A DNA stretch of 64,000 bases from Maribacter stanieri. GTDB lineage: Bacteria; Bacteroidota; Bacteroidia; Flavobacteriales; Flavobacteriaceae. The DNA lies in assembly GCF_900112245.1 (NCBI RefSeq), contig NZ_FOYX01000001.1:1599856-1663855 (forward strand), in the 5' to 3' direction. Below are positions 25,861-31,383 of this stretch, piece by piece (within the stretch, counting starts at the first letter, position 1; each line of letters starts with the position of its first letter). The position numbers and the translations under genes are program-made. The notes below the pieces were generated by a model. It made no database searches and was not told where the DNA came from. It worked only from the letters and a program-made list of their open reading frames with translations.

Positions 25861-26694
25861 ATGACCATAGTCAAAAAGATTTTTAATTTTTATTTGGATG
25901 CTAGCATTCATGTTGCCTTGGGGGTATTTTGTTTGGTACATGTAACTGCGCTGACCTTAAACATTACAGTTCCTCAAGAGTTGTATTTTTTTATTTTTTT
26001 TGGGGCTATTAGTTGCTACAATTTTGTGAAATATGGTGTGGAAGCAGAGAAGTATATCTTGGTAGCTAACACGTATCAAAAGATTATTCAATTTTTTAGT
26101 TTTGGTTGTTTGCTTGTTGCTGGTTATCAGTTGTTTTTTCTGACGGAGAGAGTATTTGTAGGATTATTGGTTTTAGCCGCTATAACCGGTCTTTATGCAT
26201 TACCTGTATTACCTAAAAATAAGAATTTCAGGAGTTTTAGCGGATTGAAAATTTTAATAGTGGCAGCCGTGTGGGCAGGCACAACCGTAATTTTGCCAGT
26301 TATTTCTCAACTAGATGTTATTTCTTGGAACGTGAAGATTGAGACGGTTCAACGTTTTCTTTTTGTACTGATACTATTAGTTCCTTTTGAAATACGGGAT
26401 TTAAAATACGATAGTGCATCTCTTAAAACATTACCTCAAAGGGTGGGGGTAAAAGGGGCAAAAAGAATAGGGTATTGTTGGACAGTGCTTTTTTATGCAA
26501 TTACATTCTTAAAAACAGATTTAGATATTACTCACATAATGGTGAAAACAATTCTGTTTGTAGTTCTAATGTTGATGATATTTAAAACAGAACTAAATCA
26601 AAAGAAATATTTTTCTTCATTTTGGGTAGAAGCTATTCCTTTACTTTGGTGGGTGCTTTTTGTTATAAGTATAAAGTATTCTATTTTGCATTAG
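25861..26694 (+). CDS. UbiA-like prenyltransferase family membrane protein
   Basis: Integral membrane protein of 277 residues with about eight hydrophobic segments. The segment EIRDLKYDSASLKTLPQRVG (Asp180, Asp184, TLP) matches the second Asp-rich motif of UbiA prenyltransferases. The first motif, usually NDxxDxxxD, is reduced to CYNFVKYG (Asn54 kept, the Asp residues absent), so prenyl-diphosphate chemistry is doubtful. It could be a diverged UbiA enzyme or a related non-catalytic protein. The gene is convergent with the small zinc-binding anti-sigma-like gene, overlapping its end by 14 bases, and may be translated from a leaderless message. Confidence 0.65.
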   Translation: MTIVKKIFNFYLDASIHVALGVFCLVHVTALTLNITVPQELYFFIFFGAISCYNFVKYGVEAEKYILVANTYQKIIQFFSFGCLLVAGYQLFFLTERVFVGLLVLAAITGLYALPVLPKNKNFRSFSGLKILIVAAVWAGTTVILPVISQLDVISWNVKIETVQRFLFVLILLVPFEIRDLKYDSASLKTLPQRVGVKGAKRIGYCWTVLFYAITFLKTDLDITHIMVKTILFVVLMLMIFKTELNQKKYFSSFWVEAIPLLWWVLFVISIKYSILH

Positions 26695-26911
26695 AGAAAG
26701 TTTCTTTCATTTTTCTCTTTTCCTCATCAGATAATACCGTAAGTTTTGCTTGATTACAAAGCGATGTTAATTTTTCATTTTTTGCACTATGTTTAGCGCA
26801 TGTCTTACACATGGTAAGATGAAACTTTAACTGTATTTTTTCCCAAACAGTTGCTTCTCTATACTGGTGTCTGTTGCAAATATTTGCAGCTTTTTCACAA
26901 GAAATCATCAT
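26681..26911 (-). CDS. Small zinc-binding anti-sigma-like protein
   Basis: Soluble protein of 76 residues with the HxxxCxxC pattern (His31, Cys35, Cys38: HLTMCKTC) seen in zinc-binding anti-sigma factors, plus a further Cys5 and Cys12. There is no transmembrane helix. Start chosen at the first of two ATG codons 2 bases after the sigma-factor stop; a longer frame would begin inside the sigma gene. Position directly behind an ECF sigma gene supports an anti-sigma role. Homologues in Flavobacteriia are sometimes labelled as glycine dehydrogenase in databases, which I believe to be mislabelling. Anti-sigma function is inferred. Confidence 0.7.
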   Translation of the reverse strand: MMISCEKAANICNRHQYREATVWEKIQLKFHLTMCKTCAKHSAKNEKLTSLCNQAKLTVLSDEEKRKMKETFSNAK

Positions 26912-26913
26912 AA

Positions 26914-27468
26914 TTAAAACCAATTTTGATTTAAACAACCCATTAAGCCGGTTCTGGCCCTATGTATCATTACCCAAAGGTTAGACGCATTAATTCCTAA
27001 AGCATTACAAATATCTTCGGTTTCCATACCTTGAATTGTTTTCATGGTAAAAACCTGTGCTTGCTTTTTAGGTAGTTTAGATATGCAATTTTGAATGGCA
27101 AGACCTAATTCCTCGTTTTCAAGATTGTCATTTTCAAAATTGCTATTAGGATCTGCAATGCGTTCTTCCATCCAATCGCCTTCTGCATCGGTTTGCGAGC
27201 TATAGCTCATACGTACCTCTGCTTTGCCTTTTTTTGAATTAATTTTGCGGTAATGATCAATTACTTTTCGTTTTAGAATTGCAATTAACCATGTGCGTTC
27301 CGCTGCATCACCTTTAAAATTTTTGGCAGATTTTAATCCCGCTATAAAAGTGTCTTGTACAAGGTCTTTTGCAATTTCCGAATCACTAACTCTAGTAACC
27401 GCATAATTGAACAGGTAATCTGCATAGAGATCTACCCACTTATCTGGATTAAGTTTGTGTGTTTCCAT
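26914..27468 (-). CDS. ECF-type RNA polymerase sigma factor
   Basis: Sigma-70 family regulator of 184 residues. Region 2 spans about residues 12-75 (ISDSE-like core: RVSDSEIAKDLVQDTFIAG, then RTWLIAILKRKVIDHYRK) and region 4 about residues 125-178 (LPKKQAQVFTMKTIQGMETE followed by the helix-turn-helix NALGINASNLWVMIHRAR). A somewhat long linker of about 50 residues, rich in Asp and Glu, joins them. The gene overlaps nothing and is followed after 2 bases by the small zinc-binding protein gene. It is divergent from a secreted rhodanese gene, and the shared 75-base spacer carries a perfect inverted repeat. Confidence 0.92.
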   Translation of the reverse strand: METHKLNPDKWVDLYADYLFNYAVTRVSDSEIAKDLVQDTFIAGLKSAKNFKGDAAERTWLIAILKRKVIDHYRKINSKKGKAEVRMSYSSQTDAEGDWMEERIADPNSNFENDNLENEELGLAIQNCISKLPKKQAQVFTMKTIQGMETEDICNALGINASNLWVMIHRARTGLMGCLNQNWF

Positions 27469-27485
27469 TTATTTTTTCTGCATTT

Positions 27486-27523
27486 CAAAAGTAACTGAAT
27501 TTTGTTTATTATGGTTACTTTTG
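27486..27523. promoter_or_regulatory. Divergent regulatory region with perfect inverted repeat, sigma factor / rhodanese
   Basis: CAAAAGTAAC (27486-27495) and GTTACTTTTG (27514-27523) are perfect 10-base inverted copies separated by 18 bases. Each arm, read outward, also contains TACTTTTG, which fits the TAnnTTTG -7 box, so one element may provide promoters for both divergent genes; alternatively the GTAAC cores are sigma or repressor recognition sites. Confidence 0.55.
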
Positions 27524-27543
27524 GTAACGTAAACACTATAACT

Positions 27544-27897
27544 ATGAAGAATTTATTGTTTTTTGTTCTACTTATAAGCGCCCAATTTACACATGCGCAA
27601 ATGGAGTCGCAACCAATTACAGAATTTGCTGGGTTTGATTCATCAACAGAAATATTAATTGATGTAAGAACACCTGAAGAGTTTGCAGAAGGTTCTATTG
27701 ATGGTGCTTTAAATATTAATTGGCTTTCTGATGAATTCAATAATCAGGTTGCAGTGTTGGATAAAGATAAGAAGTTGTATGTGTACTGTAAAAAGGGAGG
27801 AAGAAGTCTAAAGTCTCAGGCTAAATTAAAAGAGCTGGGTTTTACCCATGTTATTGATTTAGAAGGAGGGTATGACGCATATTTTTCAAAAAAATAG
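27544..27897 (+). CDS. Secreted rhodanese-like domain protein
   Basis: Exported single-domain rhodanese of 117 residues. The signal peptide is MKNLLFFVLLISAQFTHAQ; ATG 27544 is chosen over an upstream in-frame ATG at 27502 that would spoil it and lie on the inverted repeat. The rhodanese fold is complete: ILIDVRTPEEFAEGSIDGALN at the start and the active-site loop YVYCKKGGRS with the catalytic Cys, then a closing GGYDAY. Such proteins carry a persulfide on the Cys and act in sulfur transfer or as stress proteins; the periplasmic substrate is unknown. It is divergent from the ECF sigma gene, and may be under its control (inference). Confidence 0.9.
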   Translation: MKNLLFFVLLISAQFTHAQMESQPITEFAGFDSSTEILIDVRTPEEFAEGSIDGALNINWLSDEFNNQVAVLDKDKKLYVYCKKGGRSLKSQAKLKELGFTHVIDLEGGYDAYFSKK

Positions 27898-27925
27898 CTA
27901 AATGCTAAAGGATTAAAGCCTTAGT

Positions 27926-28330
27926 TCAATTTTTTATTTCTGACAGAATTTTTGTTAACTGATTTTCACGTATTGGTTTAATAATATAATCAGAGACTTC
28001 ACTTATTTTTTTCGTCTTTTCAAAATCTACCAGGTCAACAGATGATGATAGTACGTAAATGGTAATCTTCTTTTTAATTAGTGATATGGTTTTTAAGTAT
28101 TCATCCATAAAACGGTAACCATCCATTACTGGCATATTTATGTCAAGAAAAATGACATCTGGTAATTCTTTGGGGTTATCCATATTTGCCTTAATAAAGG
28201 TCATTGCTTCTGCCCCATCAGTAAAGGGTGTAATTTTTCCTACTGATGGTTGCGCCTCTAAGGTGTGAAGTATAGTGTATTGAAATACATCATCATCGTC
28301 TATAATACAAACACTTATATTATTATCCAT
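27926..28330 (-). CDS. Single-domain response regulator
   Basis: CheY-like receiver of 134 residues with no output domain. The acidic pocket is in CIIDDDDVFQ, the phospho-acceptor Asp in DVIFLDINMPVMDGY near residue 64, a conserved Ser/Thr in YVLSSS and the Lys in YIIKPI. It starts 8 bases after the histidine kinase gene ends, so the pair is a two-component system. Without a DNA-binding domain it must act through a protein partner or through phosphotransfer. This short type paired with multi-PAS kinases is frequent in Flavobacteriia. Confidence 0.92.
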   Translation of the reverse strand: MDNNISVCIIDDDDVFQYTILHTLEAQPSVGKITPFTDGAEAMTFIKANMDNPKELPDVIFLDINMPVMDGYRFMDEYLKTISLIKKKITIYVLSSSVDLVDFEKTKKISEVSDYIIKPIRENQLTKILSEIKN

Positions 28331-28338
28331 ATAATCTT

Positions 28339-31300
28339 TTAATTTAAGGTGATGATAAATGTAGAACCTACATTAACCTCACTTTTCACTGAAATTGAGC
28401 CACCCATTGCTACAATTTGCGCTTTTGTTAAAAATAAACCTATTCCCTTTGCATCTGGATGTTTGTGGAATACTTTGTTAAGTCCAAATAATTTGTCGCC
28501 GTGACTTTTCATGTCAATACCTATGCCATTGTCCTTGAACTCTAGTACTGTTTTTTTATTTACCAATTTAGAGGTAATGCAAATTTTAGGAGATCTGTCT
28601 GGAGATCTATATTTAATCGCATTGCTAACTAAATTAAGAAAAATACTTTCTAAATAAATAGGGTTGTACATTACATTTTTCGCTTCAGAAAATTTATGTT
28701 CTATAAAGGCACCTGTTTCTATTAATTCTGCAGCTAATATTTCTTTGGTTTTGTGTAATGTATGCTCAAAGGATAAATTTTCTCTTTTGTGAACTGCATT
28801 ATGTTTTATTGTTATAGTTTCAATTAGAGCATTCAATGTTTCTGTTAAGTGGTCTATTACAGTTTCGAACTTTTCAAAGATTTCTATTTTCTTAGTTTCA
28901 CTAGTTGTATTTTTATACATCCCTAAAAGCGCGTTCAAATTACTTACAGGAGATCTTAGGTTATGTGATGTTATATGATTGAACTCTGCTAATTGTTTGT
29001 TTTTGGAAGTTAAAACCATTGCAGAGGCTTCTAGGCTTTTATTTGTTTCTAGAATTTTTTGTTGTGCCTCTACTTGCTCCGTAATATCTTGGCTAGAGCC
29101 CATTAATTCTACAACATCGCCATCGTTATTAAGTAGCACCGCACCAATAATTTCTATGGTTCTAACTTTGCCGTTATTTTTTATAATGCGGTGTTGAAAC
29201 TTGTTGAACTTTTTCGTTCTAGAAATTTCTTGACTTATGGCAATAACTTTTTTTCTATCCTCTGGGTGTACCCTTTTTAAATATGTGCTAAAATTAGGGG
29301 ATGTTTCTGGGTCAAAATCTAGAATCTTTAGAAGATTTACTGATTTTTCCATCACATCATTTACAACATCCCATTTCCAATGACCTATGCTTGAAAGCTG
29401 TTCTGCAAAATTTAAAAGTTGGTTTTTCTCTAGTAAATCTTGTTCTCTTTGAATGCGATATGTTACATCTTGTGTTGTCCCAACTAATTCAATTATATTT
29501 TCATCATCATCCATAATAATTTCAGCCATGAGTTCTATGGAGCGAATATCACCGTTGTTCATTAAAATGCGATACGATAAAACGGAGTCGCTATTTTTTG
29601 TTGCGATAATATTTTCAATTTGAGCAACGACTTCGGCAGAATCATCTGGGTGTATTCTAGATAAAAATAAATCTATATCTATGGGGGAATTTGGATCTAG
29701 ATCGTAGATTTTATAAAGATTGTCTGACCATTTGGAGACGCTTGTATTTGGATTCCATTGCCACGACCCCATCATTGCCATTTTTTCTGTGAAGGAAAGT
29801 AAATGGTTTTTGTCTTTTATTTCCTGTTCAGTCTTTACACGATACGTAATATCCTGTTCAATGCCTTTTAAAGAGGTGATTTCCCCATTTTTATCCGTAA
29901 AAACCTCTCCTACAACTTCTAATGTTTTTATTTCTCCACTACGTAATTGTATCCGATATTGGGCTTTTGCAATATTTTTATCCCTTAAGATCCTTTCCTT
30001 AAAATCTTCAGTAAAACCTAAATCATCTGGGTGTACGTAAGATGAAATTAATTCTATATCGATAGGGGATCCAATTTCTATTCCGTAAATCCTATAATGA
30101 TTGTCTGACCAATTTATTTCACCGGTATTGGGGTTCCATTCCCAAGAACCGATATTTGCTATTTTCTCAGCATTATTATATTGTTGATTTTTTTCTAATA
30201 GTTGTATTTCTTTCTTCTTAATTTCCGAAACATCTTGGCAGGTGCCAGACATTTCTAAAACCTCACCCTTTTTATTGCGAATTATTTTACCAATAGATTT
30301 AATGGTTTTTATACTGCCGTCGTTTAATTGAATTTTATAAGTTGATTCAGGAAAAACACCGGTTTGCATAGCGTTTTCCAAATTTGAAATAACTCTATTT
30401 CTGTCATCTTCGTGAACAAAGTTTATATAGGTTTCAAAAGTTAATGGCTTTTCTTTGTCATGGCCATAAATTGCGTGAAGATTATCTGACCAAAAAACTT
30501 TATTGGTGGGTGTATCCCATTGCCAATACCCAATCATTGCCAATTTTTCTGCAATATTTAATTGTTGGTTTTTCTCTAAGAGTTCTTTTTCTTTTTTTTC
30601 TCTGTCAGTAATATCTTGGCAAGTGCCAATCATTTTTATGGGTTCTCCGAAATCATTGGTAATTACCATGCCAATAGAGCGAAGAGTTTTTATCGTACCA
30701 TTTTTTAATTGAATGCGATAGTTAGATTCTGGAAACTCTGTCGTTTTTAAAGCATGATCAAACTTTGAAATTGTTTTTTCTTTATCATCCTTGTGAACAT
30801 AATCTAAATAAACGTTGAACGATATAGGAGAATCTTTCTCATGCTCAAATATGTTATAGAAATTGTCTGACCATTTTACGGTATCCGTCGGAATGTCCCA
30901 ATCCCAAGACCCTGATTTTGCTATTTTTTCTGCATAATTAAGCTGCTGTACTTTTTGAACTATATCAGATTTTGCACTATTGGGTTCAGTTATATCATAA
31001 GTTGCTCCATAAAGTATTATAGAGTTTTCATCTTTCTGAAAAGGTTGTACTGATGTTCTTAAATTTCGAACATTACCTTTTACTGTTATAATTTCATATT
31101 CTAATTCAAATGGCGCGCCATTTTCGATAGCTTTTTTATGGGATACTAAAAGTTGATTTCTAGATTCAACATCTTTAAATTGACCATACATGTTTTCCGT
31201 AGTTGGAATGTAATCATTAGAAGCTTCATGTATTTCTTTTAGAACATAGTTCCAGCTTATATTATTGGAATTTACATCATATTGAAACATTCCAATTTTA

Positions 31301-31383
31301 GCCACACAACCTGTGTTTGCTAAATCTTTATCTGTAGGGGAAAGAGTTTTCTCTTTACTCATTTCAATTAAGAGTTTGTACAT
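28339..31383 (-). CDS. Hybrid-free sensor histidine kinase with six PAS domains
   Basis: Cytosolic sensor kinase of 1014 residues with no transmembrane segment. Six PAS domains run in tandem from residue 25 to about 790; copies two to six each open with a near-identical linker, AExxAxxGxWxW, followed by WSDNLYxIY, and end in a PAC motif such as GTCQDIT. The kinase part has the phospho-acceptor His near residue 806 in SHNLRSPVSN, then an ATPase domain with NLVSNAIKYRSP (N box), KDNGIGID and GIGLFLTKAQI. Start may also be the ATG seven codons later. The signal sensed is unknown; the partner is the adjacent response regulator. Confidence 0.93.
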   Translation of the reverse strand: MYKLLIEMSKEKTLSPTDKDLANTGCVAKIGMFQYDVNSNNISWNYVLKEIHEASNDYIPTTENMYGQFKDVESRNQLLVSHKKAIENGAPFELEYEIITVKGNVRNLRTSVQPFQKDENSIILYGATYDITEPNSAKSDIVQKVQQLNYAEKIAKSGSWDWDIPTDTVKWSDNFYNIFEHEKDSPISFNVYLDYVHKDDKEKTISKFDHALKTTEFPESNYRIQLKNGTIKTLRSIGMVITNDFGEPIKMIGTCQDITDREKKEKELLEKNQQLNIAEKLAMIGYWQWDTPTNKVFWSDNLHAIYGHDKEKPLTFETYINFVHEDDRNRVISNLENAMQTGVFPESTYKIQLNDGSIKTIKSIGKIIRNKKGEVLEMSGTCQDVSEIKKKEIQLLEKNQQYNNAEKIANIGSWEWNPNTGEINWSDNHYRIYGIEIGSPIDIELISSYVHPDDLGFTEDFKERILRDKNIAKAQYRIQLRSGEIKTLEVVGEVFTDKNGEITSLKGIEQDITYRVKTEQEIKDKNHLLSFTEKMAMMGSWQWNPNTSVSKWSDNLYKIYDLDPNSPIDIDLFLSRIHPDDSAEVVAQIENIIATKNSDSVLSYRILMNNGDIRSIELMAEIIMDDDENIIELVGTTQDVTYRIQREQDLLEKNQLLNFAEQLSSIGHWKWDVVNDVMEKSVNLLKILDFDPETSPNFSTYLKRVHPEDRKKVIAISQEISRTKKFNKFQHRIIKNNGKVRTIEIIGAVLLNNDGDVVELMGSSQDITEQVEAQQKILETNKSLEASAMVLTSKNKQLAEFNHITSHNLRSPVSNLNALLGMYKNTTSETKKIEIFEKFETVIDHLTETLNALIETITIKHNAVHKRENLSFEHTLHKTKEILAAELIETGAFIEHKFSEAKNVMYNPIYLESIFLNLVSNAIKYRSPDRSPKICITSKLVNKKTVLEFKDNGIGIDMKSHGDKLFGLNKVFHKHPDAKGIGLFLTKAQIVAMGGSISVKSEVNVGSTFIITLN

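Follow-up and report, generated by a model that had tools for sequence, protein, structure and literature searches.

Does a perfect inverted repeat between two divergent genes mark a site at which both are controlled together? The repeat that raises this question lies in a 64,000-nt stretch of the Maribacter stanieri genome (the window), in the 75-nt spacer (27469-27543) between the ATG of an ECF sigma factor gene (27468, minus strand) and the ATG of a rhodanese gene (27544, plus strand). The rhodanese start was read as ATG 27544, where the ORF list gives an upstream TTG at 27502. An inverted-repeat search of the spacer recovered a left arm, CAAAAGTAAC (27486-27495), and a right arm, GTTACTTTTG (27514-27523), features without a strand, of 10 nt each, 100% complementary and with 18 nt between them. 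The preliminary description had reported exact inverted arms 18 bases apart in a 75-base divergent spacer and an outward-pointing box in each arm. Both observations were confirmed, as TACTTTTG is present in both arms and each copy faces outward to its own gene.

The sigma factor gene (26914-27468, minus strand) encodes a protein of 184 aa that matched Pfam Sigma70_r2 and Sigma70_r4_2 and also TIGR02937, all above cut-off. Matches to sigma-70 regions 2 and 4 without a match to region 3 identify it as an ECF factor, and 13 ECF-type matches were found in a search of solved structures. Within the best 80 of 570 relative loci, its nearest relative was the sigma gene of Maribacter sp. HyVt-319. Of 299 sampled genomes of the family, its own included, 241 gave a match to the gene. 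The partner gene (26681-26911, minus strand) encodes a small anti-sigma-like protein of 76 aa with the pattern C-x18-H-x3-C-x2-C. Its ATG at 26911, chosen by reading of the sequence (the ORF list starts at TTG 26938), lies 2 nt after the sigma stop. The protein matched NF052368 antisigmaE with 6.9e-11 and 41.8 bits, under the cut-off of 50. It matched no Pfam family, and the sequence search for solved-structure relatives returned a single chance-level match (E 0.94). Small size, a gene placed directly behind that of the sigma factor, an upstream C and H-x3-C-x2-C give it the sequence characters of a ZAS (zinc anti-sigma) protein. H-x3-C-x2-C was found in the partners of 78 out of 81 loci (best 80 of 570 plus the window), and three further cysteines were invariant in these 78 rows, which were selected by H-x3-C-x2-C. 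Zinc ligands were lost in L048, L051 and L067, with H replaced by Y in all three and more C losses in L048 and L051. Their partner ORFs were open, and none of them had an adjacent rhodanese.

The rhodanese-domain protein (27544-27897, plus strand, 117 aa) matched PF00581 at 6.7e-19 and possesses the CxxxxR active-site loop of rhodaneses, in the form CKKGGR, behind an N-terminal signal-like sequence. The signal peptides of several relatives contain a lipobox-like cysteine (for example FSCAQ in L020, NFGCSQ in L028 and L041). Since FTHAQ replaces it in the window rhodanese (27544-27600 region), the export route of this protein may differ from theirs. The Pfam and NCBIfam matches, together with the sequence, thus support the original assignment of an ECF sigma factor, a small C/H-C-C partner and an exported rhodanese.

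How unusual the repeat is depends on the scale considered. Perfect inverted repeats with arms of at least 10 nt arose in 0.9% of dinucleotide-shuffled versions of the spacer, and with arms of at least 8 nt in 10.8%. A 10-nt repeat is mildly unusual for a single spacer and not rare across a genome. A control sample of 464 kb from this genome (the window and a further 400 kb) contained other 10-nt perfect repeats in two of 27 divergent spacers of up to 250 nt, a count which the window's spacer entered cut to 42 nt as the script took ATG 27511. The exact arm pair, with a loop of 10-30 nt and counted in its exact form only, occurred once in the 4.46-Mb genome. Read, as seems best, as two oppositely facing copies of the standard promoter box of the phylum, the repeat is ordinary, and not by itself evidence for a shared redox switch. 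The low figure of 0.9% would fit a chance repeat without function, whose boxes are not promoters. Against this, 75 of the 81 loci have TAnnTTTG almost equally far from the sigma start, and we regard pure chance as extremely improbable.

The primary sigma factor of Bacteroidota recognises a -7 element, TAnnTTTG or TAHHTTTG, at -12 to -5, and transcription starts 4-5 nt downstream of this box; the -18 and -28 zones are AT-rich, a refinement from F. johnsoniae, and the -33 signal is weak (PMC6847099 and PMC9723704). The -33 TTTG belongs to an older consensus and is reported to be much less evident in F. johnsoniae (PMC6847099), for which reason it was not treated as a defining character. TACTTTTG is an exact TAnnTTTG match in both arms. 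It was annotated as a predicted sigma-A -7 element of the ECF sigma operon at 27486-27493 (minus strand) and of the rhodanese gene at 27516-27523 (plus strand), in both cases from the TAnnTTTG match and its conservation. The distance from box to ATG is 17 nt on the sigma side and 20 nt on the rhodanese side. With upstream columns renumbered to place the box at -12 to -5, the sigma side of 75 loci showed a conserved AAA(T/A)TC (-21 to -16) and a conserved T (-28/-27), and the rhodanese side was AT-rich upstream over 41 loci. No conserved -33 TTG was found at either promoter in the aligned columns (75 sigma-side and 41 rhodanese-side loci).

We consider it very probable that the inverted repeat represents two divergent, closely spaced housekeeping (sigma-A type) promoters whose boxes happen to match. 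Each arm would serve one gene as its -7 element, preceded by AT-rich DNA but by no clear -33 TTG, and the arms look perfectly repeated because both boxes happen to share their free and flanking bases. Given the published gap of 4-5 nt from box to start, primary-sigma polymerase would start the sigma/anti-sigma mRNA near 27481 (minus strand), leaving a leader of about 13 nt, and the rhodanese mRNA near 27528 (plus strand), with a leader of about 16 nt. Predicted leaders of 13-16 nt agree with the box-to-start-codon distance of Bacteroidota sigma-A promoters. The exact TAnnTTTG, the weak or missing -33 element and the AT-rich upstream DNA also resemble these promoters (SM1-3 in PMC9723704; PMC6847099). 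Unlike the usual sigma-A promoters of the phylum, the pair is back to back and should overlap. Since only 22 bp separate the boxes, polymerase at one promoter probably hinders the other. The sequence match and its conservation are what the data show; sigma-A use, the start sites and the mutual hindrance are inferred. The earlier suggestion that the boxes have a part in transcribing both genes is thereby supported. An E. coli type sigma-70 scan of 26600-28000 gave 8 matches, compared with 5.4 (sd 2.0) in shuffles. One of them lay within the spacer (27484-27512, plus strand, 9/12) and was disregarded, since promoters of this phylum are of a different type.

Genome-wide counts were taken from 216 called genes of the 464-kb sample with an upstream gap of at least 50 nt. 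TAnnTTTG was present in the last 100 nt upstream of 57 of these, as opposed to 16 of the 216 for the opposite orientation. Outward TAnnTTTG pairs were found in four of the 27 divergent spacers, and none had identical boxes; the window's own pair is missing from this count owing to the misplaced start.

ECF factors often autoregulate. The TACTTTTG boxes might accordingly be recognised by the neighbouring ECF sigma factor, driving both its own operon and the rhodanese gene, which is its divergent neighbour in 58 of 80 loci (best 80 of 570). SM6, an ECF-type promoter, is listed for one ECF sigma/anti-sigma operon of Flavobacterium psychrophilum, and the SM6 list also includes the rhodanese-related YceA, by name a different protein from that of the window (PMC9723704). 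However, SM6 has a CGT -10 box instead (same source), whereas the box in our spacer equals the published sigma-A -7 consensus, a sequence enriched across the genome. The extended pattern AAAWTC-N3-TAnnTTTG, built from the promoter of the sigma gene, was not enriched in the genome either, with 8 matches (4 forward, 4 reverse; that of the window is among them) compared with 11 in the reversed control (4 and 7). Recognition of these boxes by the ECF factor is therefore very unlikely. If the F. psychrophilum ECF/anti-sigma operon that has SM6 is orthologous to ours, a second, ECF-type promoter might be present at this locus.

Conservation was assessed in the best 80 of 570 relative loci plus the window (81 loci). 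The sigma-side TAnnTTTG was found in 75 of the 81, against an expectation of 1.9% from mononucleotide shuffles of the regions upstream of the sigma gene, and in 68 of these it ended at a distance of 16-18 nt from the ATG. It was absent from L049, L053, L064, L069, L073 and L074. Of the 56 loci for which a rhodanese ORF was called, 41 had TAnnTTTG on the rhodanese side. This count is low because several starts were wrongly called: the caller took the first ATG, and the start was misplaced in the window, L001, L005, L019, L033, L036, L069 and L075. The sequence rows show the rhodanese-side TACTTTTG also in the window, L001, L003 and L005, and true departures from TAnnTTTG are found in L020, L028, L029 and others. 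The aligned sigma start codon was ATA in L052 (3001-3003) and in L112 (Kriegella aquimaris), so the aligned position may not be the true start in these two.

The palindrome behaved differently from the cores. The two free bases of the box vary among species (TACTTTTG, TATTTTTG, TATCTTTG, TAGCTTTG and others), and box-to-box spacing was 21-22, 26-27 or 66-71 bp, and once 147. Both boxes were present in 50 of the 81 loci. Among these, perfect arms measured 10 nt in three (the window, L012 and L036), 9 nt in eight and 8 nt in three, and only 4 or 5 nt in the other 36. The preliminary description had named conservation of the arms in related genomes as a check; the TAnnTTTG cores passed it (75/81 on the sigma side), and the palindrome did not (10-nt arms in 3/50). 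An operator for a dimeric regulator controlling both genes together would account for the perfect 10-nt arms with 18 nt between them, and for the recurrence of the 21-22 bp core spacing in Maribacter and in some rows outside it (L047, L054, L060, L061, L068, L077 and L079). Such an operator should be kept as a palindrome in relatives and recur in the genome. Neither was seen, as full arms were limited to the three loci above and the exact pair to its single genomic occurrence, and the right box varies between C and T already within 14 Maribacter-type sequences. In these 14 sequences the AT-rich stretches between the boxes are well kept; because of this and the recurring 21-22 bp spacing, a further protein site may lie between the boxes.

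The sigma-side half of the repeat was also present where no neighbouring rhodanese was detected. A further sample comprised 20 loci from other genomes of the family, hand-picked among the matches listed, three of which repeat earlier loci. The sigma-side box was found in 18 of the 20 and in 15 of the 17 new ones, L113 and L118 being without it. A divergent rhodanese, sought by tblastn within about 1.2 kb using the window protein as query, was detected in four of the 20 and in one of the 17. Thus, the sigma box is kept where no rhodanese neighbour is detected. Together with the poor conservation of the palindrome and its single genomic occurrence, this makes a shared operator hardly credible. 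The original proposal of the repeat as a shared regulatory site is not supported, on two grounds. The free bases, the spacing and the palindrome drift while the sigma box persists also where no adjacent rhodanese was detected, and the boxes match a general TAnnTTTG that is enriched upstream of genes genome-wide (57/216 vs 16/216).

The genes themselves recur together. In the best 80 of 570 loci the sigma gene was found in 80, the partner in 80, the membrane protein in 79 and gcvP in 77. Some loci, such as L030 and L062, stop close to the sigma gene, so that a missing neighbour there means little. The membrane protein (25861-26694) is a hydrophobic protein of 277 aa that matched nothing in Pfam or NCBIfam, encoded convergently with the partner gene and adjoining gcvP. 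Beyond the rhodanese, at 27926-31383, lie a response regulator and a sensor kinase of 1014 aa whose repeated segments look PAS-like by eye, a pair found within the examined flanks of 15 of the 80 loci. The neighbourhood suggests a functional link of the sigma gene with the rhodanese and does not show shared control. The sole hint of shared control by this ECF factor is the same neighbourhood (58/80), without support from the sequence.

A redox or sulfide circuit, as the preliminary description had envisaged, is unproven and rests on the recurrent neighbourhood and the zinc-ligand pattern of the partner. As in SigR-RsrA and related ZAS systems of Streptomyces, Neisseria and Haemophilus, an ECF sigma gene is followed by a small H-x3-C-x2-C partner (PMC5472188 and PMC7907618), and a rhodanese neighbour would suit a theme of thiol or sulfur stress. 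Unlike in those systems, the partner here is a putative ZAS factor below the cut-off of its sole NCBIfam family, and an ECF-type promoter was not found in this spacer. No paper on this flavobacterial sigma/rhodanese pair was found among the listed titles and abstract openings of the open-licence literature.

Among the best 80 of 570 loci, 25 have a sigma ORF that continues in frame for 29-30 codons upstream, as far as an ATG. These loci fall between L014 and L070, and the extension occupies 87-90 nt upstream of the sigma ATG (e.g. 2914-3000 in L042). They were picked by a script that required an NS/KS/NT-x2-F motif as well as an upstream Met at a distance of 24-34 codons; deviant forms in L036, L062, L069 and L080 were left out of the 25. 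The peptide is conserved, with the consensus MAALKY...VIKSNSxTFDxD..., and changes between close pairs fell on 62 third, 42 second and 23 first codon positions. The sigma-side box lies inside the extension in all 25, always in the same frame and at 17 nt from the internal ATG that follows it. The codon giving its first T always ends in T, and its amino acid is I, V, S, L, R or F; the F codon within the box is in part a product of selection, since the script required NS/KS/NT-x2-F. With the amino acids taken as fixed, about 28% of the extension loci would be expected to have the box, a figure which is no probability test because the loci are related and partly selected for F. There seems to be a DNA-level constraint on TAnnTTTG laid over the coding sequence, because the box survives while the encoded residues change. 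In 22 of the 25 loci, the 450 nt that precede the extension start contained no TAnnTTTG on the sigma strand. Eight among the matches listed in the family-genome search reached back to residue 1 of the query extension. Parsimony on the sigma-gene tree gave 6 changes for the extension, 3 of them forced by well-supported branches; one gain with several losses is our guess. AlphaFold2 modelled the long sigma form of L042 (25 rows) with a mean pLDDT of 48.8, the extension scoring below 50, values too low for the model to be informative.

The embedded box suggests an internal promoter in the extension-bearing relatives, and perhaps two sigma isoforms. Streptomyces SigR' is longer by 58 residues, its translation beginning at an upstream ATG of a transcript that is autoregulated (PMC5472188). 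The 25 relatives likewise have an in-frame upstream ATG and a promoter box between it and the short start. Their extension is only 29-30 residues long, unlike that of SigR', and is likened to it by arrangement; a TAnnTTTG upstream promoter was not found in the relatives (22/25), and the extension is absent in the window species. Tentatively, and with the balance against it, a long sigma form might be made in the relatives from an upstream non-sigma-A transcript and a short one from the embedded housekeeping promoter, in the manner of SigR/SigR'. In the window species the corresponding predicted promoter is present and the long form is absent.

For Bacteroidota in general, divergent genes that both have a standard -7 box will mimic an inverted repeat. 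From squared box frequencies we estimate that about 1 in 8 such box pairs would match over all 8 bases. Reading the repeat as two housekeeping promoters removes a tempting but wrong signal, the inverted repeat of this kind. It points to a widespread sigma gene with a zinc-type partner (241/299 sampled family genomes), and to a possible two-isoform sigma design in part of the family.
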